Assembly: GCA_013817135.1 (NCBI GenBank)
Contig: JACDDF010000016.1
Location: 1 to 13,544 of the forward strand
Origin: Nitrospirales bacterium
GTDB taxonomy: Bacteria > Nitrospirota > Nitrospiria > Nitrospirales > UBA8639
Reading direction: 5' to 3'
Length of the DNA stretch: 13,544 nt
This document shows positions 1-13,544 of the stretch, one piece after another. Both the position numbers and the translations under genes were made by a program. Numbering within the stretch: position 1 is the first letter of the stretch; each line of letters opens with the position of its first letter. The notes under the pieces are model-generated. The model saw only the letters and a program-made list of their open reading frames with translations. It did not search any database and was not told where the DNA came from.

Positions 1-108
1 AGCCGGTAGAAAGAGGAGGGCCAAAAAACTTGCTAATTTAAGCAATCCAGGCATTCTATTCATTCCTTGCGCAACGGTTGTATGTCCTAATTGGCCGGCC
101 GATTTCAT
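1..108 (-). CDS. N-terminus of an exported protein, cut by the window edge
   Basis: The first 36 codons of a minus-strand gene lie here and the rest is outside the window. I chose the ATG at 106-108 because a G6 Shine-Dalgarno run (C run at 114-119 on the plus strand) lies 5 nt upstream. An in-frame ATG lies 8 codons further upstream (129-132 area) without a comparable site. Residues 17-36 (NRMPGLLKLASFLALLFLPA) have the basic start and hydrophobic core of a Sec signal peptide, preceded by an unusually long polar leader; a downstream start at Met16 or Met19 is also possible. It follows the membrane-protein gene after a gap of about 66 bp and is probably in the same operon. A periplasmic cytochrome would suit the context, but no haem motif is visible in this fragment. 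Confidence 0.6.
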   Translation of the reverse strand, partial: MKSAGQLGHTTVAQGMNRMPGLLKLASFLALLFLPA

Positions 109-174
109 TCTGGCCCCCCTTCGATCATTCATTATTTTGTTCAAGGCTACACTCCCGAATTCGCAAAACTCAGT

Positions 175-1071
175 CTATGGTTTTTCCTCAGCCTTAATCG
201 GAACTTGTGACCCTATTTTATTATTCTCTTTGGTTTCGGGTGAAAGGTCCCTAGATTTCACAGACGATTCTGAATCCGGTAGTTTTTCATCCTGGAGCTT
301 TATTACAACAAGCTCCGCATTGGCCAAAACTTGCTCTGCTTCCATTAGTATCTTTTTTGGTTCAACTATCATCTTTTCCTTTTTTTCAAAAGTATAGACA
401 TATTCTTCATGGGGATGGGGTGTCGTTGAAGGCAGGAGAACCCAGAAAATACACACCAGCACGACTCCTACTCCGGTAAATGCTGTTAAGAGCAGGGGCT
501 GATCCGCTGGTATTCGTAAACTATCCCAAAAATTAGCCTGGTCCACCGCTGAACCGACTACCGGTTTCGCATTTTTCACAAATGGCTGAGCAAGCCACCC
601 TAGTCCATACAGCCACCCCAAAAGACAAAGAATGAGGGCGACGGTTGCCACACTTCCCCACATGACCAACTCAAGACTTATTTGCTCTGCGACCGGAATG
701 ACAAAGATATTCTCTTTAATAGATTCAACAATACTTGAAACTACGGACTGAGCCGTTTCCGTCACCGTGGACACCACGAACATTATGATCGGCAATGCCA
801 CTGCACTAAAGACTGCCCATCGAATCCAAAGATGAAGGCCAATGCCCGGCTTCGGATCGACCTTCAGCCGATCAATTAATACTGTTCTCGCACAAAGACC
901 AAGCGCCCAAATATCCACCGGTATGGAAACAAGTAACAATAAAAATAGACCGACCCCCTCCCAAGGGTGCATGTGTGCCGCGAGCAACAACAAGACCACA
1001 ACCATCTTTATTGGGAATCCGGTCCAGAATGTAGGCCAAAAAACAAGAAGTCCTAACTTCGTATTTGACAT
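175..1071 (-). CDS. Membrane protein of unknown function in the complex III operon
   Basis: I do not recognise this 298-residue protein. About five hydrophobic segments can be seen, near residues 22-36, 38-60, 82-102, 134-160 and 194-214. A hydrophilic, Glu/Lys-rich tail follows from about 217 to 298, including a probable amphipathic helix at 237-262. There is no CxxCH, no conserved His pair and no nucleotide-binding motif. The start follows the cytochrome b stop by 13 bp with a GGA-type ribosome site 5 nt ahead, so translation is probably coupled to cytochrome b. The position suggests an accessory or assembly subunit of the bc-type complex, with the charged tail as a docking surface. That role is inference from gene order only. 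Confidence 0.85.
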   Translation of the reverse strand: MSNTKLGLLVFWPTFWTGFPIKMVVVLLLLAAHMHPWEGVGLFLLLLVSIPVDIWALGLCARTVLIDRLKVDPKPGIGLHLWIRWAVFSAVALPIIMFVVSTVTETAQSVVSSIVESIKENIFVIPVAEQISLELVMWGSVATVALILCLLGWLYGLGWLAQPFVKNAKPVVGSAVDQANFWDSLRIPADQPLLLTAFTGVGVVLVCIFWVLLPSTTPHPHEEYVYTFEKKEKMIVEPKKILMEAEQVLANAELVVIKLQDEKLPDSESSVKSRDLSPETKENNKIGSQVPIKAEEKP

Positions 1072-1084
1072 ATGTTTCCAGAGA

Positions 1085-2197
1085 TTAGTCTAAAAAGTGA
1101 CGGTTTATAATGGCTGAGACCGTAAACACCAGAATAAAGACCATGATTACCGTCCAACCAATCAGAGCCATGGGCCGCTTAAAGATGTTTCGCTCTGAAT
1201 TGGTATCCAGAAAAGGCAGCGCCGCTAAAAAGGCCATAAATGCCCCTGGTATGGCCATCGCTCCAAGGAATTGTCCAAACTCCCCGCCAAATATTTTCAA
1301 TCGAAGCAACTGAAATAAGAACAAGAAATACCACTCTGGTTCCGGATGATAATCCCCAGGATCCGGAGTCGCTTTTTCCAGCAACACTACCGGCTCAATG
1401 AAGGCCAGTGAACAAATGATTAGAAAAACAGTGGCCATTGCCACAATATCTTTCCATATCTGACGAGGAAAGAAGTAATCAGTTTTGGCTTTGACCTCTT
1501 CAGGTGTGCCCCTAAACGGACCTGCTGGCCCAGCCTTTCTAAACAGGAAAATATGAAGGCCAGCCAGCCCTGCCAAAGCAGCAGGCAAGACCATGACATG
1601 GATGACAAAAAACCGGCTCAGCGTCATTTGCCCTGGCGTGGGACCACCCTTAAGAAATCGAGCCAAAAAATCCCCAATAATTGGAGTTTTATCCATGATT
1701 TCTACACCCACCACCGTTGCCCAGTATGCGCGTTGATCCCAGGGGAGGAGATAGCCTGTAAAGCCAAAACCCATCACAATGCCAAATAATGCCAGACCCA
1801 CTAACCAAACCAGTTCTCGCGGCTTTTTATAGGCTCCCCATAAAAATACTTGAGACATATGTGCAAAAACCATTACCACCATGGCAGAGGATCCCCAAAA
1901 ATGGTAGCTCAACAGAAACCATCCGTAGTCCACCTCGTGTATGATGTATTGAGTACTTGCATAAGCATGATCTGTACTGGGGACATAATAGAACATCAAC
2001 AGGATCCCAGTAACGACTTGAAGAATAAAGATAAATAACAACACCGAGCCAAAAGCGTAAGCCCAGCGGGAACCACCGGGGATTGGCTCATTCAGCATTT
2101 TGGCCTGAATTGTTTTCAGACCTACCCGCTCATCAACAAATTCCACAACCTTTTCAAAAGCATTTTGTGGACTTGCGACTTGACTGTCTTCCTTCAT
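1085..2197 (-). CDS. Cytochrome b (b6/subunit IV fused type), quinol-oxidising core of complex III
   Basis: This is the di-haem membrane subunit that oxidises quinol in bc1/b6f complexes. The 370-residue form from the ATG at 2195-2197 is preferred: a GAAAGG site lies just upstream and this start leaves 28 bp after the Rieske stop, whereas the longer frame from 2275 would overlap the Rieske gene and adds a non-conserved leader. Haem ligands are His99/His113 (13 residues between) and His200/His215 (14 between). The 13/14 spacing matches cytochrome b6 rather than mitochondrial-type cytochrome b (13/13). The Qo-site PEWY motif is at 287-290. The C-terminal half carries subunit IV-like helices, so b6 and subunit IV are one chain of seven or eight helices. 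The lengths and motifs look intact. Confidence 0.95.
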   Translation of the reverse strand: MKEDSQVASPQNAFEKVVEFVDERVGLKTIQAKMLNEPIPGGSRWAYAFGSVLLFIFILQVVTGILLMFYYVPSTDHAYASTQYIIHEVDYGWFLLSYHFWGSSAMVVMVFAHMSQVFLWGAYKKPRELVWLVGLALFGIVMGFGFTGYLLPWDQRAYWATVVGVEIMDKTPIIGDFLARFLKGGPTPGQMTLSRFFVIHVMVLPAALAGLAGLHIFLFRKAGPAGPFRGTPEEVKAKTDYFFPRQIWKDIVAMATVFLIICSLAFIEPVVLLEKATPDPGDYHPEPEWYFLFLFQLLRLKIFGGEFGQFLGAMAIPGAFMAFLAALPFLDTNSERNIFKRPMALIGWTVIMVFILVFTVSAIINRHFLD

Positions 2198-2225
2198 GCG
2201 CCTTTCACCATTCCATCCTAGGCTT

Positions 2226-3170
2226 TTATAGAAGCCGAATTTGGTTATTAACCCCGGCTTTATACTCCACATCAATTATTTTCACTTCTCCACCGGCATC
2301 AATTTGGAGAGGAAGGACGTCGAGCGGTCTCGGTGCCGGGCCATCAATAACTTTTCCAGCTTCATCATAAATACTCAGATGACAGGGGCACAAAAATACC
2401 CCATCTGGAAAGTTTTTCGTCTTTCTCCATTTATACCCACACCCAAGATGAGGGCATTTCCCAGAGTAGCCGATATAGGGAGAATTTGATTTGTTCACCC
2501 AAATAACATCACCTTTATCATCGAAAAACTTCCTATCATTTCCCTCGTATACGGCTTTTTGAACCGCCGGAGTCGCCTTGACTACCCAAATATTTTTTTC
2601 AATCTGTTGCTCCGGCATAAAGGCTTCTTTAAACCCGCGAGTAAATTTAAATTGGAATCCAATATTCTCTTTACTCACCTTCTTAACATTGCCAACGGAA
2701 AACCAGGCATTATCGTAGGGTTTAAACATCGGCTTCATGAGATACTTCAACACAGGATATACTAAGGGCAAGGCAATTAACGTCCCAATGGCATGGGTCA
2801 TGTTGGTAAAAAACGTTCGTCGCGGGACTCCTTGCTCTAAGCGCGGCAGAGGAACCAGGATCTCTCCAGGCTCCACATGCAAATGATCTTCTAAGTGCGC
2901 AATTTCAACTTCTTTAATTGTGACGTACTGATCTCGCTCCAGTACTGGAAATTGACCGAATCCTTCCGGTGAACACCGAAGGACAATTTCCTCTTCACTC
3001 ACCACCTCCTGAACCTGGCCAATAGGAACCTGCCGTTCGATTCCCTGACCATTCAATTCCCGTACGACAACATGGCTGATTTCGTGGGAGAGAGGATCAA
3101 CGATAACCTTGGAAATCTTTCCGATTTCTTTGTCCGCACACAATGCTTTTGCTGTCAATTTTGGTTGCAT
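2226..3170 (-). CDS. Rieske 2Fe-2S protein with N-terminal PRC-barrel-like domain
   Basis: This is the iron-sulphur subunit that passes electrons from quinol to cytochrome c. Of its 314 residues, the C-terminal domain has CPHLGC (239-244) and CPCH (261-264). Predicted ligands are Cys239, His241, Cys261 and His264, with Cys244/Cys263 as the usual disulphide pair. The single membrane helix is at about 122-145, directly after an Arg-Arg pair (117-118, RRTFF), which looks like the twin-arginine signal of canonical Rieske proteins. Unusually, about 115 residues precede that signal. Residues 5-85 (DKEIGKISKVIVDP region) resemble a PRC-barrel, a small beta domain known from photosynthetic reaction centre H subunit and RimM. 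This domain should stay in the cytoplasm. The gene starts 26 bp after the cytochrome c stop. Confidence 0.93.
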   Translation of the reverse strand: MQPKLTAKALCADKEIGKISKVIVDPLSHEISHVVVRELNGQGIERQVPIGQVQEVVSEEEIVLRCSPEGFGQFPVLERDQYVTIKEVEIAHLEDHLHVEPGEILVPLPRLEQGVPRRTFFTNMTHAIGTLIALPLVYPVLKYLMKPMFKPYDNAWFSVGNVKKVSKENIGFQFKFTRGFKEAFMPEQQIEKNIWVVKATPAVQKAVYEGNDRKFFDDKGDVIWVNKSNSPYIGYSGKCPHLGCGYKWRKTKNFPDGVFLCPCHLSIYDEAGKVIDGPAPRPLDVLPLQIDAGGEVKIIDVEYKAGVNNQIRLL

Positions 3171-3196
3171 AGCCAGAGGAAAACCTCAGATGTGAA

Positions 3197-4009
3197 TTAG
3201 TTCATTTTTATTGGCTTCGGAGTTTTAACCGACTCATCTTTTAACGTGACAAGAAAAGCCACAAGCGCATCAATTTCTTGTGGGAACATGAGATCTTTAT
3301 ATTTATCAGGCATTTTTCCCTTTTCGTAATCCTTATCATATCCTTCTGCTTTCCATGTTTTAGGATAAAAAATCTTCTCTTTAATCTGTTCAGCAGTCAT
3401 GAGATTACCGATATTATCCATCTCAGGCCCACGCTTTTTCCCACCTTGGCCATACAGCTTATGGCAGTTATAACATTCCTGAAGTTCCCATTGATCTTTT
3501 CCAAGAGCCACGAGATCGCCAGAGGCAGCCCCACCCCCGGCTGCACCAGTCGTAGACGCCACTTCTACTTTGGCATCAGCCCCAAGAGAACTCAGTTGCT
3601 TGGAAATAGCCTTAGCCCGTTCATCCAATTCCTTTGCCCTGGCTATCAACTCATCCGCCTTCCCTTGCTCTGTTTCAGCGCGACGAAGCTTCAAGACTTT
3701 TTCAATTTTTCCCTTTTCATCTTCTGGGTCAAACTGAGGCAGAATCGACGCCCCGGCAATATAGAGACCAGAAAGCAGGAGGTAAAATACCGCTAAAGCC
3801 CCAACCGCCTTCACCCCTTCCAACCGTTTCATCGCTGGAGCATCTAAAAGAATGAACACAAAAGCCCCTAGCATTGCATAAAGAAAAAACATGATCTGAA
3901 AGACTGGTGGAAAATGGGTATATTTAGCCCCAACTACCAACAACACTCCAATAATGACCCCAAAGGTGGTCTTTTTCATGACACTCTTGGCAAAACTTTT
4001 GTTAGCCAT
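3197..4009 (-). CDS. Membrane-anchored monohaem cytochrome c with coiled coil
   Basis: This 270-residue protein is a likely electron acceptor from the Rieske centre. Three hydrophobic segments are visible at about 14-30, 36-55 and 66-90. A charged, Ala/Glu/Lys-rich coiled-coil region follows (98-142), then a Gly/Ala linker (153-164), then a cytochrome c domain with CYNCH at 179-183 and a likely axial Met at 233 (KMPDKY). Monohaem class I cytochromes normally have at most one membrane anchor, so three helices plus a coiled coil suggest a structural role inside the complex. A strong site (GAGG, then five bases) precedes the ATG at 4007-4009, and the gene follows the bd-like gene by 24 bp. The exact partner protein is inferred. 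Confidence 0.9.
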   Translation of the reverse strand: MANKSFAKSVMKKTTFGVIIGVLLVVGAKYTHFPPVFQIMFFLYAMLGAFVFILLDAPAMKRLEGVKAVGALAVFYLLLSGLYIAGASILPQFDPEDEKGKIEKVLKLRRAETEQGKADELIARAKELDERAKAISKQLSSLGADAKVEVASTTGAAGGGAASGDLVALGKDQWELQECYNCHKLYGQGGKKRGPEMDNIGNLMTAEQIKEKIFYPKTWKAEGYDKDYEKGKMPDKYKDLMFPQEIDALVAFLVTLKDESVKTPKPIKMN

Positions 4010-4033
4010 TTGTTTCCTCTTTTTTCAAGCTTC

Positions 4034-5779
4034 TCATTTAGCTTCAACTGGGACTGACGATGCCATTGAGGATGCCGGCTTCGGGCTTCCAGCTTTTAGC
4101 GTGACAAGAATGGCAAAACTCACAACAGCGTAAAACACAATAGTCACCCCAGTTACCCACCATGCCGAATAGGCCAGGGTCGGGGTAAACGCTTCAGGAG
4201 TAAAATCAGGAACGAGGTTATAGACATGGTAATATTTTCGAGTTAACGAACGGATCGCCCCCATGAGGCCCATGGTCCAAATCATGGTAAAAGCCAGAAA
4301 AATGAGAACGAACTGGGAAGCAAAATCAATCTTTCCCCAGACGATTGTCCCACGCTTAATGGCACGGTTATATAACAGATAATTGACCACCGTCAGGAAC
4401 ACGAGGGTAAAGGCCGCAGCATTCTTTGCCGGCATGAGCGCTAATTCACTCGCCCATGAAGGCAACTCGTTCTCCTCCGTGGCTAGCCCTTGCGTCGGGA
4501 CAAAGCCATGAGGGGTCATCCAAATCGCATCGGCCACCACAATCATTAAAAAACCAATCTTGATCATGGTGAACGCCGACACTGTAAAATTCCTAAGACC
4601 GGGAACTTTGCTGAGAGCTGCTGGGAGAACGACTAGAAGTCCCAACACAATCAAAGACTGCCACTCCGGCGGAGGGAACATTTTCCATGTAAATCCCATG
4701 ATGGCTGGCAGGAGCAGGACCACCACCGCGACGAATCCAGATATTCGTACCTGTTCCACACCTTGAATTCGCTTGAGGCTTAACCAGATATAATAATTAC
4801 TGGCTAAAAAGATCAGTCCAATCATGGCCCCCTGCATTTCAAAAAACATCGACAATTGGTCGGCCATCATGTAGGGACAAATGGATGCGTCATAATCACA
4901 CAACTCGTAGGCTAGGAGATAACCCATGAACGGAAGAAGCAACAGCGCCCCAACGCCGATCATGTTCCCCACAAAGCCCATCCAGTCGTAATAGGCTCGC
5001 TCCTCATCTGTTTTTGATCCCATAAACATATAGGCCGCGATTAAGCCAGTAATAAATCCACCAAACGTCACATTTCCTACCAGGCGATGAAAGTTGAGCG
5101 GCATCCAGCTAAAATTAGCCATCTTGTCCCACAAGCTGGCGGTCTGGATAAACTCAACCAAGGATACGCCTTCCACAGCTTTAGCTGGGGTATTCATGAA
5201 GGAGGTCGGTCCGTCAATGACAAAGAGTGTCACCGTTCCCACTATATTCAGAAGGATGCCAAGAGCGATGTGTCGTCCTTTTTTCGCTCCCTTCATGGAA
5301 TCCCATGAATAAAAATAGGTATACAAAATAATAGTTTCAAGGATAAACAGCAGGGGGTAGATTACCGCGAACACAAGGAAAAAATGCTTGATCAACCATG
5401 TCGAAAAGTCAGGATATGTCCCGAGCAGGACAAAGATGAACAAACCTCCAGTTAAAGCAGTCATACTGTACAGAATGACTGTGACCTTAATAACTTCCTT
5501 GGCCAGACGGTCATACTTCGGATCGTTATTCTTATACCCCAGCCATTCAGCAACTACCACGAAAATCGGCGCGCCTAAAATAAACGCCGCAAATAAGATA
5601 TGGAGTTGAGCGACAAACCACACCGCCGTTCGATTTCCCGAATAGGGAAAATCTACAAGTGGAGCATCTGGAACCTGGCCAAAGGCTGTAGCCGCCCCAC
5701 TTAGGCCCAACGCTAGAACTATCCATAGACTTCGATTCAGTGTTTTCAAGGGTCCCCGCCCTCCTTCTTTTTCATTCAA
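4034..5779 (-). CDS. Cytochrome bd-like ubiquinol oxidase subunit I homologue
   Basis: This is a 581-residue polytopic membrane protein with more than a dozen hydrophobic stretches and a signal-like first segment (14-34). It resembles the long CydA-like proteins of nitrite oxidisers. His60 (in QLHILFAAF) sits where the first haem-ligand His of CydA lies, and His231 (NFHRLVGN) resembles the second. I cannot find the GRQPW Q-loop signature or a convincing equivalent of the CydA haem-b558 Met, and no CydB gene is present. A true quinol oxidase role is therefore uncertain; it may be an electron-transfer or proton-handling subunit attached to complex III. An AGGA site 5 nt before the ATG and an 8-bp gap after the lipoprotein gene show operon membership. 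The C-terminus is Ser/Pro/Ala-rich. Confidence 0.85.
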   Translation of the reverse strand: MNEKEGGRGPLKTLNRSLWIVLALGLSGAATAFGQVPDAPLVDFPYSGNRTAVWFVAQLHILFAAFILGAPIFVVVAEWLGYKNNDPKYDRLAKEVIKVTVILYSMTALTGGLFIFVLLGTYPDFSTWLIKHFFLVFAVIYPLLFILETIILYTYFYSWDSMKGAKKGRHIALGILLNIVGTVTLFVIDGPTSFMNTPAKAVEGVSLVEFIQTASLWDKMANFSWMPLNFHRLVGNVTFGGFITGLIAAYMFMGSKTDEERAYYDWMGFVGNMIGVGALLLLPFMGYLLAYELCDYDASICPYMMADQLSMFFEMQGAMIGLIFLASNYYIWLSLKRIQGVEQVRISGFVAVVVLLLPAIMGFTWKMFPPPEWQSLIVLGLLVVLPAALSKVPGLRNFTVSAFTMIKIGFLMIVVADAIWMTPHGFVPTQGLATEENELPSWASELALMPAKNAAAFTLVFLTVVNYLLYNRAIKRGTIVWGKIDFASQFVLIFLAFTMIWTMGLMGAIRSLTRKYYHVYNLVPDFTPEAFTPTLAYSAWWVTGVTIVFYAVVSFAILVTLKAGSPKPASSMASSVPVEAK

Positions 5780-5787
5780 TTCCTGGA

Positions 5788-6363
5788 TTATTCTGCCGCT
5801 TTTTCAGGCTCTCCACCGGCAGGGGCTGCTGCAGCTGGGGCTTCGGCGGCAGGAGCATCACCTGCAGGTCCCGACCCGGCTGTTCCCGCAGGAACCCATT
5901 GCCCTTTCGCAACATCATATTCCTTGCCCTTGAGCCCAAAGCTGGCTTCAAACGCAATTACTTTCCAAATGGCGTCCTCTGAAAGCTTGCTCTTCCATGC
6001 TTTCATTTTTGTACTAGGAACGCCCTCAGATACTCGCCAAAACCATACCGCATCCGAATAGAGCTGCATTTGTTCAGTCCGTCGGAAATCCCGAGCACCG
6101 GCTTTGACAGGCTTTCCGTCTTTACCATGACAACTCGCACAATTCACATCAATATTCTGTTGTCCAGTAAAGATGGCCTCTCCCTCTTTCAAAACTTCTG
6201 GATTATTCCAATAGCCAGCTGGCATATGTTTATCCGCGTATTCCGGCGGAGCAGGAGGAGGCGGTTGCGGGGGACCTTCGGCACCACCACATGCTGACAT
6301 CAAAAGGCCCATGACGGCCAACCCACTAACTAAAAAACTTTTTACAAATTTAAACTCGTTCAT
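5788..6363 (-). CDS. Monohaem cytochrome c lipoprotein
   Basis: This is a 191-residue c-type cytochrome, the first gene of the respiratory operon. The ATG at 6361-6363 is chosen because a G5 ribosome site lies 5-9 nt upstream and it begins directly with a signal peptide; a start further upstream at 6420 would add 19 polar residues. The hydrophobic core (10-22) ends in a lipobox-like MSAC with Cys25 as the probable lipidated residue. A Pro-rich linker follows (31-40). CASCH at 75-79 binds haem, and Met120 (TKMKAW) is the likely sixth ligand. The C-terminal 35 residues are Ala/Pro/Gly-rich and low in complexity. It is probably tethered at the membrane and exchanges electrons with the bc/bd-like complex encoded downstream. 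Confidence 0.92.
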   Translation of the reverse strand: MNEFKFVKSFLVSGLAVMGLLMSACGGAEGPPQPPPPAPPEYADKHMPAGYWNNPEVLKEGEAIFTGQQNIDVNCASCHGKDGKPVKAGARDFRRTEQMQLYSDAVWFWRVSEGVPSTKMKAWKSKLSEDAIWKVIAFEASFGLKGKEYDVAKGQWVPAGTAGSGPAGDAPAAEAPAAAAPAGGEPEKAAE

Positions 6364-7090
6364 TGTTCCCCCTCGTTTACCTGAATCTTGATTTGCCAAA
6401 TTCCACATTACCCCACCCAATCGTCGCCTCTCTGGACCTAATGCCCAGAATCGCTCCTACTCCAAATTATTTCTTGCGGTCCCTATCTTTTTAGTGAAGG
6501 ACAACTTTCTATAAACCATCGCAATCTGCTTTCCCATTCTCCGAAATATCTGCCAGAGTTTCCCTCACGGAAACGACAGCCGTTTCAATGCCATCCCCGT
6601 CATTCCCACAAATTCGACCCTCGATCCTAGAGCGATGCTCTACCTCTGAAGTGCATAAACACACTGACCGGAACAAACGTCCAAATGAAGAGAATTACAG
6701 ATAGAAAGAAACGACAGGACTGTACCACATGCATACACCGTACATTCTTCAGGTTTCACAAGCCTCAGCAATTCTTCCAACTGAAAATCCCCTGACAATC
6801 GTTTTTATCCTATTCAAAAATCCTTGGGCTACATAGGTCTCTTGGGCCCAAAAAAGTTCAGGACTTCTATCACAGTCAGAAGCCAACCGTCAATTATTTC
6901 CTACGTTCTTGCGCGCTCTTTACCGCTTTCCATGCTTGTGTTTTTGGAGAATAAACATACCAGTTCATGAGTCGAGAGAGAAATAAATTTTCCATCCCAC
7001 CTAGAGTCCGATTACTAGCAAAACCTGTTTTGGATAATATAGATGATTCAGAACGTTGAAGGGAAAACAATGCTTGCGGGAATAGTATCG
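6364..7090. other. Long intergenic region
   Basis: No convincing gene of normal size lies in these 727 bp. The region must hold the 3' end of the hpnH transcript and the promoter of the respiratory operon, but I see no strong -35/-10 pair and no classical hairpin-plus-U-run terminator. Short symmetric elements are present: TAGAGC-GAT-GCTCTA at 6628-6642, TTGGGCCCAA at 6842-6851, and a CAAAAC/GTTTTG pair near 7019-7034. A possible 33-residue ORF (6894-6995) is listed separately. Confidence 0.6.
6894..6995 (-). CDS. Possible small ORF, 33 residues, unknown
   Basis: A minus-strand reading frame runs from the ATG at 6993-6995 to a TAA at 6894-6896. A shorter start at 6966-6968 gives 24 residues beginning MNWYVYSPKT. 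The product is basic, with three Trp/Tyr aromatic positions close together and a Lys/Arg/Glu-rich end (SAQERRK). AGGTGG lies immediately before the first ATG, closer than is usual for a ribosome site. I do not recognise the product. It lies downstream of the hpnH-linked unknown gene and could be a third member of that transcript or a chance frame. Confidence 0.22.
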   Translation of the reverse strand: MENLFLSRLMNWYVYSPKTQAWKAVKSAQERRK

Positions 7091-7438
7091 TTAAGAGCTT
7101 GACTCAGACTTCTTCCACTTTTGCGCCCAGTCCTCCCACGACCGACCAAACGCCGTATCCTGCCCTGAAAATACGATCTTAGCCACATCTTGATATAAAA
7201 CCATACGCGGATGCTGATCTCCTGGAAGGAATAGCTGTATATACGGCTGAGGAGCCTCCTCCTGCCGATCAAATACAAATCCCATAACCTCCTCCCCCTT
7301 TTTGAGTTGAATCGTCACATCGCCTCGATAATCAAACACGAGATTCATGGCTTCGTGCAATTCTTTCTCATTCAAAGGTTGAAGGCACCGGCCTTCCCAT
7401 GATTGAGGAGAACCGATTGAGGATATTTCTGGATCCAT
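7091..7438 (-). CDS. Small conserved-looking protein of unknown function, downstream of hpnH
   Basis: This 115-residue soluble protein has no signal peptide or membrane segment. The ATG at 7436-7438 has a GAGGG site about 6 nt upstream. The middle (35-90) has the alternating hydrophobic pattern of a small beta barrel: GDVTIQLKKGEEVMGFVFD, then a beta-strand-like YIQLFL, then a final VAKIVFSG. This resembles an Sm-like or related barrel in pattern only. A Trp-rich end follows (SWEDWAQKWKK, about 100-110). The gene lies 89 bp after hpnH in the same direction, so the two are probably co-transcribed. I do not recognise the family, and a link to hopanoid synthesis or regulation is inference from position. 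Confidence 0.8.
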   Translation of the reverse strand: MDPEISSIGSPQSWEGRCLQPLNEKELHEAMNLVFDYRGDVTIQLKKGEEVMGFVFDRQEEAPQPYIQLFLPGDQHPRMVLYQDVAKIVFSGQDTAFGRSWEDWAQKWKKSESSS

Positions 7439-7527
7439 AGTTGACCCTCTACTTCCCGCTAAGCGTTGAGACGATTACCAGATGATCCAGAGTTGAGGAA
7501 GGGAAAGAAAAAATAGAAAATAGGAAC

Positions 7528-8544
7528 TCACACAGCATTGGGAAACAGGGTTGCCCTGACGGTGCCAAAAAACCCACCCCATGAACTGAAGGTATCTTTC
7601 ACGGCCGAAGCTTCATATCCACAATGCACCATACAATCGCGGCATTGTTCATGTCGTCCCGTTCCATAACGCTCCCACTCCGTTTCTTCCATTAATTCTC
7701 GAAAAGTGGATGCGTACCCATCCTGCAATAAATAACAGGGGCGCTGCCATCCAAAAATATTATACGTGGGATTCCCCCAAGGGGTGCATTCATACTCCCG
7801 CTTCCCCATCAGGAATTCAAGGAATAACGGAGATTGGTTGAACTGCCAACTACGTTTTCGTTGAGCCAGCAATTGCGCAAATAACGAATGCGTTCGATCA
7901 CGGCTTAAAAAGCTATGCTGATCCGGAGCCTTTTCATAACTATACCCAGGAGAAATCATCATGCCTTCCACACCCAACTCCATCATCTCATCAAAAAATC
8001 TCCTGACACGAGCAGGCGCCGCATCATTAAATAATGTCGTATTGGTCGTTACGCGAAAACCTTTGGCCAAAGCGGCTTTAATGGCTTTCACGGCAACGTC
8101 ATAGACGCCATCTCGACAAACGGCATGGTCATGCTCTTCCTTGAGACCATCCATATGGATACTGAATGTGAGGTATTTCGAGGGAGTATAGTCCTGCAAT
8201 TTCCTTTCAAGCAGAATGGCATTTGTACAGAGATAAACATATTTTTTCCGCTTCACAAGCCCTTCGGCAATAGCTGGCATTTCAGGATGAATGAGGGGCT
8301 CTCCTCCAGGAATACTCACAATGGGCGCGCCACATTCATCAGCTGCAGCCAAACATTGCTCAGGCGTCAGGCGCCGATTCAAAATATGGTCTGGGTATTG
8401 GATTTTTCCACACCCTGCACATTCCAGATTACACCGAAAGAGCGGCTCTAACATCATCACAAGAGGGTATCGCTTCACACCCCGCAAGTGCTGTGAGAGA
8501 GCATAATGAGCTACGGTGTACATTTGAGAAACTGGTACCGACAT
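7528..8544 (-). CDS. hpnH: Radical SAM adenosylhopene synthase HpnH
   Basis: HpnH joins the 5'-deoxyadenosyl group of SAM to diploptene, giving adenosylhopene, the first step in making extended C35 hopanoids. The 338-residue protein has the radical SAM motif CxxxCxxC at Cys38, Cys42 and Cys45 (RCNLECAGCGKIQY), the GGEPL-type SAM-binding stretch, and a Cys-rich end (CRDCMVHCGYE) typical of this family. The ATG at 8542-8544 is chosen because an AGGAG site lies 10 nt upstream (8555-8559) and family members begin with a similar PVSQMYT segment. A TTG at 8572-8574 would put the ribosome site inside the coding region. It lies about 100 bp after tRNA-Cys with no clear terminator between. Squalene-hopene cyclase is not in the window. 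Confidence 0.95.
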   Translation of the reverse strand: MSVPVSQMYTVAHYALSQHLRGVKRYPLVMMLEPLFRCNLECAGCGKIQYPDHILNRRLTPEQCLAAADECGAPIVSIPGGEPLIHPEMPAIAEGLVKRKKYVYLCTNAILLERKLQDYTPSKYLTFSIHMDGLKEEHDHAVCRDGVYDVAVKAIKAALAKGFRVTTNTTLFNDAAPARVRRFFDEMMELGVEGMMISPGYSYEKAPDQHSFLSRDRTHSLFAQLLAQRKRSWQFNQSPLFLEFLMGKREYECTPWGNPTYNIFGWQRPCYLLQDGYASTFRELMEETEWERYGTGRHEQCRDCMVHCGYEASAVKDTFSSWGGFFGTVRATLFPNAV

Positions 8545-8644
8545 TGTTATTTTACTCCTGGAGATAATTGCCAAATTTCAAGAGCGTCCACTTCCTATTC
8601 TCTGCATAAATCTCAACACCTATGCCTGATGCAAGCAGAATGAA

Positions 8645-8720
8645 TGGAGGCGCCGAGCGGGTTCGAACCGCTGAATCGCAGTTTTGCAGACTGCTCCCTT
8701 AGCCACTTGGGTACGGCGCC
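8645..8720 (-). tRNA. tRNA-Cys (GCA)
   Basis: The minus strand folds as a full cloverleaf. The acceptor stem is GGCGCCG/CGGCGCC, the D arm has CCC/GGG, and the anticodon stem GCAGT/ACTGC encloses loop CTGCAAA, with anticodon GCA at 8685-8687. The T arm is AGCGG-TTCGAAC-CCGCT. The discriminator base is U73, the known identity element for cysteinyl-tRNA synthetase. The CCA end is encoded (8645-8647). The gene is intact. Confidence 0.98.
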
Positions 8721-8731
8721 ATTACGGGATC

Positions 8732-8760
8732 ATTATAAGAAGTCTATTTTCTCTTGTACA
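8732..8760 (-). promoter_or_regulatory. Probable tRNA-Cys promoter
   Basis: A perfect TATAAT (8732-8737, minus strand) lies 11 bases before the first tRNA base, which suits a short 5' leader. With 17-bp spacing the -35 is TGTACA (8755-8760), matching TTGACA at four of six bases. This -35 sits at the centre of the palindrome at 8746-8769. Confidence 0.7.
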
Positions 8761-8769
8761 AGAGAAAAT
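8746..8769. repeat. Perfect 24-bp palindrome, part of a three-arm repeat
   Basis: ATTTTCTCTTGT is followed at once by its exact reverse complement. On the minus strand a third copy of one arm (AAGAGAAA, 8775-8782) lies 7 nt upstream of the TTTCTCTT arm (8760-8767), which also pairs with AAGAGAAA at 8748-8755. Two mutually exclusive hairpins can thus form downstream of ispG. There is no U-run after the second hairpin, so it is not a standard intrinsic terminator. It may be an operator over the tRNA-Cys -35, a factor-dependent terminator for ispG, or an mRNA-stabilising stem. Confidence 0.75.
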
Positions 8770-8809
8770 CTGGCTTTCTCTTTCTTTAGTCCTCGAAAGG
8801 CTGGAATCA

Positions 8810-10006
8810 TTACTGACGAGGCAACACGGGAAGTTCTCTGGAAACAGATCGTTTTGAATTTAAGGAAAGATCTTCCATTAAGGAGTGATTACTGGAAAGG
8901 CCATCAGGTGTCTCATGAATATTAACGCTCGGCTCTTGACCACCTTGCTCTTTGGCCATCAATTCCACTTCTTCAATTAAAGTATGAAGAAGCTCTTCAG
9001 ATGGCACACGTTTATACAATTTCCCTTTTTTAAAGAGAATCCCTACGCCTTGCCCTCCGGCTATTCCAATATCAGCCTCTTTCCCTTCGCCGATTCCATT
9101 CACCACACAACCTAAGACAGATATGGTGATGGGGGTCGTAATATGCCCTAGTCGATGCTCTAATTCGTTAGCCATTTTCACCACATCGATTTCAACTCGC
9201 CCGCATGTCGGACAAGCAATCACATTGACTCCTCGGTGACGAAGCTCCAGCGATTTCAGGATTTCAAAACCCACCTTGACTTCTTCCACCGGATCGGCCG
9301 CTAACGAGACCCGGAGAGTATCGCCGATACCCTGAGAAAGCAGCCAACCTAACCCAATAGCAGATTTCACAGCGCCGGTCATCGCAGTTCCTGCTTCGGT
9401 AATACCGATATGCAAGGGGTAATTGGCTTGTTGGGCAAACAACCAATAAGCATCCATTGCCATGTGCACATCAGAGGCCTTCAGGGACACCTTCATATTG
9501 GTAAACCCAACATCCTCCAAAGCATGGACTGCATTCAACGCCGACTCGGCAAGAGCTTCAGCTGTGGGATAGCCATATTTTTCAAGAAGATCCTTCTCTA
9601 AAGACCCCCCATTCACTCCAATTCTGAGTGGAATGCCATAGTCATTGACGGCCCGAATCACCTCTTCTGTTTTCCACCATGGCCCAATATTCCCTGGATT
9701 AATACGGACGCAATCCACAAATCTAGCGGCTTTCAGAGCAAGACGATGGTCAAAATGGATATCTGCGATCAAGGGTGCGGTCATTTGGGATTTAATTTTT
9801 TGAAGCGCATCAACCGCCTCCATATCAGGCACGGCCACCCTAATCAATTCACATCCAGCTTTCTCTAGCTGGTGAATCTGCTCCACAGTCCCGGCGACAT
9901 CCCTCGGATGAGGAATCGTCATAGACTGAACCGATATTGGGGCATCGCCACCAATTTTGACCGATCCAACCTTGATTTGTTTGGTTTTTCGTCGAGAAAT
10001 ATACAC
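8810..10006 (-). CDS. ispG: 4-hydroxy-3-methylbut-2-enyl diphosphate synthase IspG
   Basis: IspG converts methylerythritol cyclodiphosphate to HMBPP, the penultimate step of the MEP isoprenoid pathway, using a 4Fe-4S cluster. The 398-residue protein has the cluster ligands Cys265 and Cys268 (ACPTCGR), Cys300 (VLGCVVNGIGE) and Glu307. The N-terminal TIM barrel begins with the typical KTKQIKVGSVKIGG segment, which supports the GTG start at 10004-10006 although no clear ribosome site is visible. The start follows the dxs stop by 9 bp, so translational coupling is likely. The conserved core ends near residue 352. About 46 further residues are polar, Ser/Glu/Asn-rich and not part of the usual enzyme. 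Confidence 0.96.
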   Translation of the reverse strand: MYISRRKTKQIKVGSVKIGGDAPISVQSMTIPHPRDVAGTVEQIHQLEKAGCELIRVAVPDMEAVDALQKIKSQMTAPLIADIHFDHRLALKAARFVDCVRINPGNIGPWWKTEEVIRAVNDYGIPLRIGVNGGSLEKDLLEKYGYPTAEALAESALNAVHALEDVGFTNMKVSLKASDVHMAMDAYWLFAQQANYPLHIGITEAGTAMTGAVKSAIGLGWLLSQGIGDTLRVSLAADPVEEVKVGFEILKSLELRHRGVNVIACPTCGRVEIDVVKMANELEHRLGHITTPITISVLGCVVNGIGEGKEADIGIAGGQGVGILFKKGKLYKRVPSEELLHTLIEEVELMAKEQGGQEPSVNIHETPDGLSSNHSLMEDLSLNSKRSVSRELPVLPRQ

Positions 10007-10015
10007 GAAAATAAT

Positions 10016-11911
10016 CTATCGTAGTGCGGCTTGCAGGGAAACCCGGTCATGTAACGCCTTGGCCTGATCATAAATCCCATCCGCCGTGAGGCCATACTTT
10101 TCCCGGAGCAAATCCTGAGGACCTTGTTCAATGTACCAATCTGGCAACCCGAGCACCTTGGTCGGCATACCCCAACATTCTTCCTCTGATAAAAACTCTA
10201 ATACAGCCGATCCAAACCCGCCCATGCGGCAACCTTCTTCAACCGTAATTAAACATTTCACTTTTTTGGCAATATTTAGAATAAGCGATTTATCTAGAGG
10301 CTTCACAAACCGTGCATTTATGACAGCCACCGACACGCCCTCTTCTTGTAAACGCTCAGCTGCTTTCATAGCCTCCGAAACCATAACTCCAATCGCAATA
10401 ATCGCCACATCTTGCCCATCAGACAACAGCTCACCCTGTCCAATTGAAAGAGGAATTGGCTCAGAATCTAATGGCACCCCCAGGCTACTGCCACGAGGAT
10501 ATCGGACCGCCACTGGCCCATCATGCACCAATCCTGTTTGGACCATATGCTGAAGTTCATTTTCATCTTTTGGTGCCATAATCACCATATTGGGAACATG
10601 CCGCAGAAACGCAAAATCAAAAGCTCCATGATGGGTCGTTCCGTCTTCCGCCACCAATCCTCCCCGATCAATACAAAAGGTCACCGGAAGGTTTTGGGTT
10701 GCCACATCATGCACAACCTGATCATATGCCCGTTGCAGAAAGGTAGAGTACATACAAATTACCGGCCGCATATTATCAGCAGCGAGACCGGCCGCATAAG
10801 TCACGGCATGTTGCTCAGCAATCCCTACGTCAATTAACCGGGAGGGAAACTCCTTTTCAAACTCAGACATTCCTGTTCCCTCGCACATAGCAGCCGTAAT
10901 GACCACCACCCGGTTATCTTTTTTGGCTTGACGAATCAGTGTTTTGGCTGCGATGGAACTATACGAGGGGTGACCGGGCTTTTTCACCGGTTGCCCAGTC
11001 TTCGAATCAAAAGGTGAACAGGCATGAAACCAAACAGGATTCTTCATGGCCGGCTGATAGCCTAATCCTTTTTTGGTAATCACATGCAGGAGAGTTGGCC
11101 CTTTTAATTTCAAAACATTCTCCAGGGTCGGCAATAAATGCTCAAAATTGTGTCCATCAATCGGACCCACATATCGAAATCCTAATTCTTCAAATAGCAA
11201 ACCTGGCAGCAGAAGACCTTTGGCCAGCTCTTCGGCCCGGATCGCCATTCGCTTCACGGGTTCCCCAATTTGCGGAATGGTTTCCAGGAGTTGAGAAGTT
11301 TCTTCACGAAGCCTTGTATAGAACTCCCCGGTAAAGGTCCGATTAAGGTAGGCGGAAATGGCCCCGACGTTTTTGGAAATCGACATTTGATTATCATTCA
11401 GGATCACGACACAGTCCCGGCCCATATCTCCGGCATGTTGCAACCCTTCCAAGGTCATTCCAGCAGTGAGCGCACCGTCTCCTACGACGCAAACCACCTT
11501 ATTGGACTTTCCTAATTGCTCACGAGCTTCCACAAAGCCCACAGCAGCGGACACCCCGGTTCCGGCATGTCCGGCGTTAAACGTGTCATAAATACTTTCT
11601 TCTCTTTTAGTAAATCCGCTTATTCCCCCAAACTGGCGGACCGTATGGAATTGTTCACGACGGCCCGTTAATAATTTATGTGTGTAGGCCTGATTACTGG
11701 TATCCCAAACGATTTTATCGTCCGGTGTGTTCAATAAATACTGCAAAGCCACCGTCAACTCCACCACACCTAAATTGGAGGCTAAATGCCCACCCACATG
11801 GGAAATCACTTCTATGATGAGTTCCCGAATTTCCTGACAGAGTTCAGGAAATTGGTCACGAGAAAGCTTCTTTAAATCTGCTGGACTTTCAATCCTTTTT
11901 AGCAAGGACAT
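10016..11911 (-). CDS. dxs: 1-deoxy-D-xylulose-5-phosphate synthase
   Basis: Dxs condenses pyruvate and glyceraldehyde 3-phosphate to DXP, the entry step of the MEP pathway, using thiamine diphosphate. The 631-residue length is normal. The cofactor motif runs from GDG (144-146) to NDN (172-174), with catalytic-site His42 in HVGGHLASNLG. The transketolase-like DRGGLVAEDGTTHHGAFD segment and a C-terminal transketolase domain are intact. At residues 71-75 the common VGHQ is TSNQ, so an Asn stands where most homologues have His; this may be lineage-specific. The ATG at 11909-11911 has an AAGGA site 6 nt upstream. It is the first gene of the dxs-ispG operon and supplies precursors for hopanoids and quinones. 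Confidence 0.97.
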   Translation of the reverse strand: MSLLKRIESPADLKKLSRDQFPELCQEIRELIIEVISHVGGHLASNLGVVELTVALQYLLNTPDDKIVWDTSNQAYTHKLLTGRREQFHTVRQFGGISGFTKREESIYDTFNAGHAGTGVSAAVGFVEAREQLGKSNKVVCVVGDGALTAGMTLEGLQHAGDMGRDCVVILNDNQMSISKNVGAISAYLNRTFTGEFYTRLREETSQLLETIPQIGEPVKRMAIRAEELAKGLLLPGLLFEELGFRYVGPIDGHNFEHLLPTLENVLKLKGPTLLHVITKKGLGYQPAMKNPVWFHACSPFDSKTGQPVKKPGHPSYSSIAAKTLIRQAKKDNRVVVITAAMCEGTGMSEFEKEFPSRLIDVGIAEQHAVTYAAGLAADNMRPVICMYSTFLQRAYDQVVHDVATQNLPVTFCIDRGGLVAEDGTTHHGAFDFAFLRHVPNMVIMAPKDENELQHMVQTGLVHDGPVAVRYPRGSSLGVPLDSEPIPLSIGQGELLSDGQDVAIIAIGVMVSEAMKAAERLQEEGVSVAVINARFVKPLDKSLILNIAKKVKCLITVEEGCRMGGFGSAVLEFLSEEECWGMPTKVLGLPDWYIEQGPQDLLREKYGLTADGIYDQAKALHDRVSLQAALR

Positions 11912-12014: not shown

Positions 12015-13010
12015 TGTCAAGCATCAGTCTCTTCCACTATGAAATGAGTCTGAACGGGTGGCGTGTCTCTTAAGGTGAAGTGAGCCTGAACCCGAACTGA
12101 GGTTCGGGCATGGTGGGAGGATGACAACCATCATGCCTCTCAACGCGTTGACGACTCTTGCCCACATGAAAGAGTTTCTGGCGGCGACCCAACCCGTCGC
12201 CTTCTCCTTGCTCAGTTCCAAGGATGAATATTACCAATGGCTTCAAGCGACCTTGCTCACGGTTGAGTACCCTGACATTCTCCCGGCCTCAGAAAGGCCT
12301 CGCCCTCCGCTATCTCAGGAAAATGAGTGGGTATTCCCGGCAGCAGCTCACTCGGCTGATTCACCGGTGTCTGCAGACGGGAAGGGTGCCACGCCGCCAG
12401 CGCACCATCCAGAGCTTTGCTTGGCGGTACACCCTAGAGGATATCCGTTTGCTCGCCGCCATGGATGCACGCCACGACTCCCGTGGACCCGCCAAAAAAC
12501 TGTGTGAGCGAGCCTGCCGGCTCTTTGGCGAGGCTGAGTCTCAACGCCTCGCAACCATCTCAATCAGCCAGATATACAAATTGCGGAAGTCCACCGGGTA
12601 TTTGCGCCACCGGCAATCAGTGGAGAAAACACGGCCCACTCCCTCCCGCATCGGGGAGCGGCCCAAGCCACACCCCGCAGGGCAACCGTGTTTTCCCCGC
12701 ATCGATACGGTGCCTTAAGAGGATTGGGATAGCTGTTGATCGACTTCACCAAATCCCGCGCCAGCCAGACCAACGATAAGGCTCTCGTCGAAAGGAAGAA
12801 TAGGGCGGTAGTGCAAACACGATTTGGCCAATAGCCACATTCCCCAACGCTGGGCCCCGCCCATCAATGCCTTCAGGCGCGCCTCACACCCTATCCGAAC
12901 TGTCATCGGCCCTGCTTCTTTCCGGAGATCCGGACGGATCCGAAGGGCAAAGCACGCAAGATCTCTCGCTACGAAACGATGATGACGCCTTATGCCACGC
13001 TAGAATCACG
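12015..13010 (+). mobile_element. Decayed insertion sequence, integrase-core transposase type
   Basis: The left end is placed at about 12015, where TGTCAAGC begins, because TGT is a common IS terminus and sequence character changes there; this is an estimate. Before the transposase start there are two imperfect 16-bp direct repeats, TGAAATGAGTCTGAAC (12040-12055) and TGAAGTGAGCCTGAAC (12076-12091), matching at 14 of 16 bases and 36 bp apart. They could be transposase binding sites. A stem CCCGAAC-TGAG-GTTCGGG follows (12091-12108). The transposase (12121-13010) is broken. The right end is missing: similarity stops around 13010 inside the next gene and no inverted copy of the left end is visible. 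Confidence 0.7.
12121..13010 (+). pseudogene. Frameshifted, internally deleted transposase (rve/DDE, IS481/IS3-like)
   Basis: The reading frame must be followed in pieces. Frame 1 from ATG 12121 gives the N-terminus (LAHMKEFLAATQPVAFSL). Near 12266-12272 a +1 shift moves to frame 2, which carries the helix-turn-helix half (LRYLRKMSGYSRQQLTRLI) up to RIDTV (first Asp of the DDE triad) and then a TAA at 12716-12718. The middle of the catalytic core, with the second Asp, is deleted. Frame 1 resumes at 12733 with LLIDFTKSRASQTNDKALVE, including the third catalytic acid at 12790-12792, until TAG at 12832. Frame 2 gives SHIPQRWAPPINAF (12833-12874). Frame 1 from 12910 gives PCFFPEIRTDPKGKARK and TPYATLES. 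The family assignment is from remembered homologues. Confidence 0.85.
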
Positions 13011-13544
13011 CCCGCGGGCGGAATAGGCTGAGGCCTGCACATCGCGGGTGAGGCACTCACGCCCAAAGGTGATGAGGTGGTGAGCCACCATCGCGATTTG
13101 GAAGACTGATTCGACATTACCCTGGCGCAGCTCCCGCCTGGTCATTTTCCAGAATTCTTTTCGATAATCGCTACAAACCCCAACCCGCCAGGCGGTGCGT
13201 GAGAAGATCTCGATCGCGCGCCAAAGATTGGGCCATGTGAGCTGGTCCAGTGGACGCACTGGTCGCTTGCGGTGTGGATACGTTCTCTTTGCTTGCGCAG
13301 CATAGCGCACGTAAATATTTCGTGGCTCGTACGTCTCACGAATTACATGCTTCCAATTCGCCACCACCTCCTCATAAGGCTGCAGGTACTCGACATTCGA
13401 ATCACGTCCTTCGCCAGAATTCAGCCGATTGGCCTTTTGCAGCCGTTCGTAGAGGGGTGTATGCGGCAAGGCAACGAGTAAGTTCGGTGTCACAATGGGA
13501 ATCTGAGAAGCCTCAATAAACTCCAGGATCGCATCTGTTGTCTC
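12990..13544 (-). CDS. C-terminal part of a B12-binding-type radical SAM protein (DUF4070-like), 5' end outside window
   Basis: The frame is open through the right edge, giving 184 codons of the C-terminus. The visible part starts inside the radical SAM barrel end (FIEASQIPIVTPNLLVALPHTPLYERL split around 13460-13540). It continues with a helical, aromatic and basic domain (PYEEVVANWKHVIRETYEP, YRKEFWKMTRRELRQG, VAHHLITFGRE) resembling the DUF4070 domain of cobalamin-binding radical SAM enzymes. The cluster-binding CxxxCxxC and the B12 domain would lie beyond the window. Because hpnH is nearby, a hopanoid-modifying enzyme such as the HpnP methylase is possible but not shown. The last five residues (DSSVA) and the stop are antisense to the transposase remnant, so the native C-terminus was probably replaced. 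Confidence 0.75.
   Translation of the reverse strand, partial: ETTDAILEFIEASQIPIVTPNLLVALPHTPLYERLQKANRLNSGEGRDSNVEYLQPYEEVVANWKHVIRETYEPRNIYVRYAAQAKRTYPHRKRPVRPLDQLTWPNLWRAIEIFSRTAWRVGVCSDYRKEFWKMTRRELRQGNVESVFQIAMVAHHLITFGRECLTRDVQASAYSARGRDSSVA

Follow-up and report, generated by a model that had tools for sequence, protein, structure and literature searches.

A gene cluster of a Nitrospirales bacterium that probably joins a b6-like complex III with a two-CydA oxidase

The window, that is, the whole stretch of DNA analysed here, is 13,544 nucleotides long and is the entire contig JACDDF010000016.1 (C72 in our numbering) of a Nitrospirales bacterium (GenBank assembly GCA_013817135.1; 645 contigs, 84.6% complete). 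Six complete genes of the window, together with the first part of a seventh, belong to a cluster of eleven genes, probably one operon. In our view, this cluster likely encodes a module of complexes III and IV, in which a b6-like quinone:cytochrome c oxidoreductase is combined with a cytochrome-c-fed oxidase built on two CydA paralogues.

We propose the following electron flow for this organism, which is probably a nitrite oxidiser. The Rieske protein (RIE) and the b6-like cytochrome b (CYTB) would form the quinone:cytochrome c oxidoreductase, where two c-type partners, CYC1 and CYC2, would take the place of cytochrome c1/f. The two CydA-like proteins, CYDA (OR-N1) and CYDA2 (OR-N2), would constitute an oxygen reductase fed by cytochrome c. 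Electrons from nitrite would reach cytochrome c, perhaps via the alternative NxrC and the cytochromes encoded at the end of the cluster, and most of them would then pass to O2 through both CydAs. A minor share would be driven uphill by the proton motive force via complex III onto methyl-plastoquinone for CO2 fixation; according to the accessible parts of the literature, such reverse flow through complex III onto methyl-plastoquinone has already been published for Nitrospira. The gene content described below fits this electron flow. It is also possible that the two complexes are physically associated, with CYC2 and a membrane protein, MEM, acting as linkers.

Complex III genes of the window

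The genes of the cluster that lie in the window are the following.

CYC1, 5788..6363, minus strand: monohaem cytochrome c lipoprotein with lipobox C25, CASCH and Met120 (Pfam PF13442, E 7.4e-9)
CYDA, 4034..5779, minus strand: CydA-like membrane protein (PF01654, Cyt_bd_oxida_I, E 8.6e-18, 64.5 bits, cut-off 26.2)
CYC2, 3197..4009, minus strand: three transmembrane (TM) helices predicted by hydropathy, then a monohaem cytochrome c domain with CYNCH (PF00034, E 4.6e-10)
RIE, 2226..3170, minus strand: Rieske [2Fe-2S] subunit (PF00355, E 3.9e-8)
CYTB, 1085..2197, minus strand: fused cytochrome b, likely starting with the ATG at 2197 (PF00033, E 3.8e-50; PF00032, E 6.5e-8)
MEM, 175..1071, minus strand: membrane protein with five long helices, the last of them followed by a conserved HPH
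CYDA2 (start), about 1..144, minus strand: partial gene of a second CydA-like protein, running on into contig C376

These coordinates and gene contents bear out the first-pass annotation of the window, made from the letters alone, which had described six complete, tightly spaced genes and one partial gene, with two monohaem cytochromes and a membrane protein of no known family among the products: CYC1 and CYC2 have one CxxCH each, and MEM matched no Pfam or NCBIfam family over the cut-off. The intergenic gaps are 8, 24, 26, 28, 13 and 30–66 bp, the last varying with the start codon chosen. Because of this tight spacing and the conserved gene order, the seven genes probably form one transcript, as the annotation had also supposed. 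Its further suggestions, a single physical complex and reverse electron flow, are compatible with the findings. A scan for promoters and terminators gave results near chance (15 found vs 10.4 expected, and 12 vs 8.4) and was not used as evidence. The affiliation to Nitrospirota was likewise supported, the closest relative of RIE with a species name being Candidatus Nitrospira neomarina (93%).

Conservation was counted with the window as one row and with fragments under a length limit dropped. C239, H241, C244, C261, C263 and H264 of RIE are invariant (45/45 rows), and so are H98, H112, H199, H214 and the PEWY motif at 286–289 of CYTB in all 38 rows (numbering of the 369-residue query). The CYTB histidines are spaced by 14 and 15 residues, which we take to be the spacing of b6, and the best solved relatives of CYTB are cytochrome b6 chains. 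In CYC1, no variation was found at C25, C75, C78, H79 and M120 (51/51 rows); the same holds for C179, C182, H183 and M233 of CYC2 (46/46 rows), in which a charged, probably coiled stretch separates the TM helices from the cytochrome c domain. The complex resembles b6f/bc1 in the Rieske ligands, the four haem histidines and PEWY, but differs from them in the fusion of the b6 and subunit IV parts, in a putative PRC-like domain of the Rieske protein, in the interleaved CydA genes and in that no cytochrome f/c1 was recognised: the cytochrome c1/f models gave no match to CYC1 or CYC2, and the match of CYC1 to actinobacterial QcrC stayed below the cut-off (E 0.036). An alternative complex III was rejected, since none of the families that we take to be those of the Act subunits was found among the six operon proteins or the five from contig C376.

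RIE has a putative N-terminal PRC-barrel-like domain (about residues 1–110), followed by one TM helix and the Rieske domain. The match of the window protein to PRC (PF05239) is under the cut-off (E 0.027); among 32 aligned proteins, 17 gave E<=0.1, the best being 4.6e-4. PF05239 was matched in 5/10 relatives from outside the order, in one case just over the cut-off (21.4 vs 21.2 bits). In the structural model, residues 1–110 are strand-rich, with a mean pLDDT (predicted local distance difference test) of 64–89 per ten-residue block. Foldseek and VIA-align list Rieske chains for RIE, and VIA-align covers mostly residues 149–310 and barely 1–148. Judging by these matches and the model, residues 1–110 appear to resemble a PRC barrel. 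No paper naming both "Rieske" and "PRC-barrel" was among those searched.

H219 and H221 of MEM are present in 36 of the 37 rows. The MEM model has a mean pLDDT of 73.9; Foldseek found no match for it in PDB at E<=0.001, and no PDB sequence matched at E<=1.

The second CydA and the class of the oxidase

The first-pass annotation had noted a CydA-like protein lacking a partner, with neither CydB nor GRQPW. The absence of both is confirmed, but the partial gene is the head of a second CydA, the rest of which lies on contig C376 of the same genome. Bases 1–147 of C376 are identical to the reverse complement of the window end at 146/147 positions, and window bases 1–147 encode residues 1–49 of the C376 CYDA2 protein with 100% identity; because of this overlap and this identity, the partial gene is the start of CYDA2. 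In relatives, a second CydA-like match lies on the same strand about 4 kb beyond where the first gene ends, with about 41% identity over its first half. The window is a whole contig, and the apparent lack of a partner therefore reflects where the contig stops. The lone CydA is an assembly artefact of the contig end, and a CydA without a partner was rejected both by the overlap of C72 and C376 and by the loci of relatives.

On C376, CYDA2 is followed by these genes.

212-residue monohaem cytochrome c
242-residue monohaem cytochrome c
284-residue EB_dh-family protein, the alternative NxrC (PF09459, E 1.2e-20)
346-residue dihaem cytochrome c, then an opposite-strand gene, which we take to be ubiA-like

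Both CydAs belong to the CydA superfamily by similarity, CYDA2 reaching 66.7 bits against PF01654 (cut-off 26.2). H60, E78, E148 and H231 of CYDA are invariant in 46/46 rows. In CYDA2, H85, E103 and H249 are present in 34/34 rows and E172 in 33/34, and H386, H402, H403 and M416 are invariant. H60/H231 of CYDA and H85/H249 of CYDA2 align with H23/H187 of a canonical CydA from the same genome; these conserved histidines of the N-terminal half are presumably haem ligands. For the C-terminal ligands, only the comparison of CYDA with CYDA2 was used, the profile alignment to the canonical CydA being unreliable there. In the profile alignment of the two proteins, CYDA2 H386 stands opposite CYDA H424 (histidine in 41/46 rows), H402 and H403 stand opposite no CYDA histidine, and M416 is opposite CYDA N453.

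The motif GRQPW is absent in both CydAs of the cluster and in 32 other CydA-like rows, and is present in the canonical protein of L001 (35 rows). No CydB family was found among the 11 window open reading frames (ORFs) or the five C376 proteins scanned. A canonical CydAB quinol oxidase was therefore rejected: the cluster shares with it the PF01654 core and the conserved histidines, but lacks GRQPW and CydB, and the identity to the canonical CydA of its own genome is only 26% over 266 residues. In the tree of the 35 CydA-like rows, support of 100/100 was obtained for the CYDA clade (13 rows) and equally for a third bd-like clade (9 rows); the CYDA2 rows were left without resolution, and three distant rows stood on very long branches. 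In L083–L086, cytochromes c come after a CydA of the third clade. Behind them, L083, L084 and L086 encode a dihaem protein about 600 residues long, which fits the published alt_NxrC_2/bd-like_3 cluster; L085 ends before it. A canonical CydA on contig C258 of G000 (6772–8039) is apparently split over two reading frames.

Oxygen reductases of the CydAA' type, OR-N1 and OR-N2, were reportedly described by Murali et al. in 2021. As far as the accessible parts of the publications go, OR-N1 together with OR-N2 is regarded as the likely, cytochrome-c-fed oxidase (PMC12342949, PMC10839748), and experimental confirmation of its subunit composition and function is still lacking (PMC10839748). Our cluster is like OR-N1/OR-N2 in that it has two CydA paralogues, no GRQPW and an origin in Nitrospirales; two paralogues in one cluster were found across C72/C376 and in 35/51 loci. 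By these published descriptions, rather than by a tree with reference sequences, CYDA is probably OR-N1 (bd-like_1) and CYDA2 probably OR-N2 (NIDE0901-like). For bd-like_2 of Nitrospira moscoviensis, the available text states putative haem b and copper sites (PMC6606698); going by the conserved residues, this suits CYDA2 better than CYDA.

The CIII_1/bd-like_1/bd-like_2/alt_nxrC_1 region of N. moscoviensis is described as strongly transcribed, and a III–IV supercomplex was proposed for it (Mundinger et al. 2019, PMC6606698). Judged by the available description only, and with its sequence not identified among our loci, that region is like ours in having Rieske, cytochrome b, two bd-like genes, several cytochromes c and an alternative NxrC. 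In both clusters, two cytochromes c stand between the oxidase and NxrC, which is a 30.5 kDa protein in N. moscoviensis and has 284 residues here. The putative PRC-like domain and MEM, which our cluster has, are not mentioned in the accessible part of that description (PMC6606698). Parts of four further papers (PMC3578206, PMC12324825, PMC8115632, PMC10579370) were also used, and no paper on a Nitrospira supercomplex was among the 20 matches listed of the 720 that a literature search gave. In outline, the cluster has thus already been described and is largely known. In the parts of the literature consulted we did not meet the PRC-like Rieske domain, the shrinkage of MEM in one genus, or the absence of CydA outside the order; MEM itself was not searched in print.

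Gene order within and outside the Nitrospirales

To count gene order, the seven proteins were compared by tblastn with 51 loci, comprising 31 contigs found with the CYDA query and 20 stretches around CYDA matches in genomes. CYDA is present in all 51 by construction, and the number is one of loci, not necessarily of distinct genomes. Matches of CYC1 below 40% and of CYDA2 below 50% were removed beforehand, and 3 of 23 genomes of the same order (G042, G047, G050) were excluded because the CYDA match was weak or a contig-end fragment. The order CYC1-CYDA-CYC2-RIE-CYTB-MEM-CYDA2 on one strand was found in 35/51 loci, in one of which (L028) a contig end cuts the last gene. Such conservation of order exceeds chance. 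As for the remaining 16 loci, 11 are cut by a contig end without contradicting the order, three are without CYDA2, one is broken by a run of N and one holds only Rieske and CYDA. In the broken one (L040), RIE is interrupted by a 100-base N-run near position 13157 of a chromosome-level metagenome-assembled genome (bin371), which we took for a scaffold gap. CYDA2 lies far off in L040/L089, apparently in the same record judging by the coordinates, and this arrangement is probably a scaffolding error. The single real exception is L078 (whole contig: L092), where Rieske stands directly before CYDA (3366–6113 of L092), and CYC1, CYC2, cytochrome b and MEM are absent from the contig.

The tie between the bd-like gene and complex III claimed by the first-pass annotation is supported, with the same gene order in 35 of the 51 loci. 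Scattering of these genes in relatives, which the annotation had named as the opposite outcome, was not observed inside the order apart from L078/L092 and the scaffold gap of L040, but outside the order the linkage does not seem to extend. A search with the Rieske alignment over 148 genomes of the phylum gave a match to some part of it in 133, and among the matches listed it was mostly the Rieske domain alone. Outside the order, three genomes from two families gave whole-length matches, and residues 113–309 were matched in a third family. From the 96 outside genomes with any Rieske match, the 12 with the most complete matches were taken. In all 12 loci a CxxCH-bearing cytochrome b comes after Rieske, and none of the 12 stretches showed a recognisable CydA-like gene beside this type of complex III (in L125–L131 by ORFs only; in L122 and L128 the contig stops shortly after cytochrome b). 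The linkage of CydA with complex III looks specific to the order. L123–L131, from family f16, have Rieske and the CxxCH cytochrome b, a PRC-like domain by Pfam in 4/8 scanned and no recognised CydA; the genes adjoining Rieske and cytochrome b there are presumably fabI-like and mutS-like.

Upstream of CYC1, on the same strand, the window contains a gene without a Pfam match, a radical SAM/DUF3463 gene (presumably HpnH-like), GcpE and DXP synthase. The last three (7528–11911) form a neighbourhood of isoprenoid/hopanoid type, which L033 also shows. Two overlapping ORFs in different frames at 12121–12718 have no Pfam match over the cut-off and are perhaps a frame-shifted remnant of a mobile element.

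Alternative readings and biological meaning

A combined module of complex III and a two-CydA oxidase gains from the lack of a COX1 match in the organism's own genome (84.6% complete). Several observations weigh against it. In the same genome, the nitrite oxidoreductase model TIGR03479 gave only matches below the cut-off, as in the four examined genomes of genus g13 (family f4), and two canonical CydA loci are present that could serve as the oxidase. The g13 genomes are 73–96% complete, and the cluster is visible in three loci (L065, L068, L070). All three have CYDA with complex III and without an adjoining CYDA2, in which they differ from the OR-N1/OR-N2 pairing; MEM is reduced there to its last helix and the tail, and the tail in L065 is rich in histidine/methionine repeats. 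The closest CYDA2 relative, in three of the four genomes, is 46–47% identical and is placed in the third bd-like clade, and the fourth genome (G041) shows no CydA-like gene beyond CYDA. Since CYDA2 does not adjoin and its closest relative is so distant and of another clade, the pairing of CYDA with CYDA2 does not appear to be obligatory in g13, which as one genus counts as one event.

These loci suggest another arrangement, which we regard as unlikely, where CYDA is a haem-b subunit of complex III in place of the C-terminal c-haem domain that cytochrome b has in relatives outside the order, and CYDA2 is a separate oxidase module. It would agree with the position of CYDA, which stays between CYC1 and CYC2 in the three g13 loci with no CYDA2 adjoining and MEM down to one helix, with the CxxCH of cytochrome b and the missing CydA in 12/12 loci outside the order, and with the lack of His/Met in CYDA opposite the invariant H402, H403 and M416 of CYDA2. 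On the other side, CYDA keeps the active-site histidines of its N-terminal half, three of the four g13 genomes hold another CydA-like protein that could pair with it, and no match to COX1 or to a canonical CydA turned up in these four genomes, absences that are provisional; moreover, all of g13 is a single event. The annotation's own proposal, in which a single bd-like module stands in for a second partner, is highly improbable. The window does hold just one full CydA gene, but CYDA2 starts at 144 and continues on C376 beyond the 147-base overlap, and a different CydA follows directly here and in the 35 loci with both. As to gene content the proposal is refuted, and the g13 loci are the nearest approach to it.

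We give somewhat less than an even chance to a further reading, in which co-transcription keeps the expression of the genes balanced, but complex III and the bd-like oxidase remain distinct complexes that exchange cytochrome c. In function it does not differ from the combined module; all that it denies is physical contact. Lying in one cluster is no proof of contact, and the further cytochromes c of C376 could be carriers; but the lipobox cysteine of CYC1 and the three predicted helices of CYC2 make neither of them look like a free shuttle.

A bolder scenario, which seems to us rather improbable, concerns the history of the order. The ancestors would have had a PRC-barrel Rieske protein and a cytochrome b to which a haem-c domain was fused. 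Within Nitrospirales, a haem protein of the CydA type would then have become a structural, electron-carrying subunit of complex III, CYC1, CYC2 and CYDA would have replaced the ancestral haem-c domain, and MEM would dock the second CydA oxidase. If this were true, one operon would encode a III–IV supercomplex without a haem-copper oxidase, and g13, which kept CYDA, lost CYDA2 from the cluster and retained the last helix of MEM, would be a natural deletion experiment. What deserves to be followed further is MEM, the putative PRC-like domain of Rieske and the pattern seen in g13. Nitrospira are widespread nitrite oxidisers, and the seven-gene core, MEM and g13 offer handles on whether complex III and the bd-like oxidase are parts of a single machine in them.

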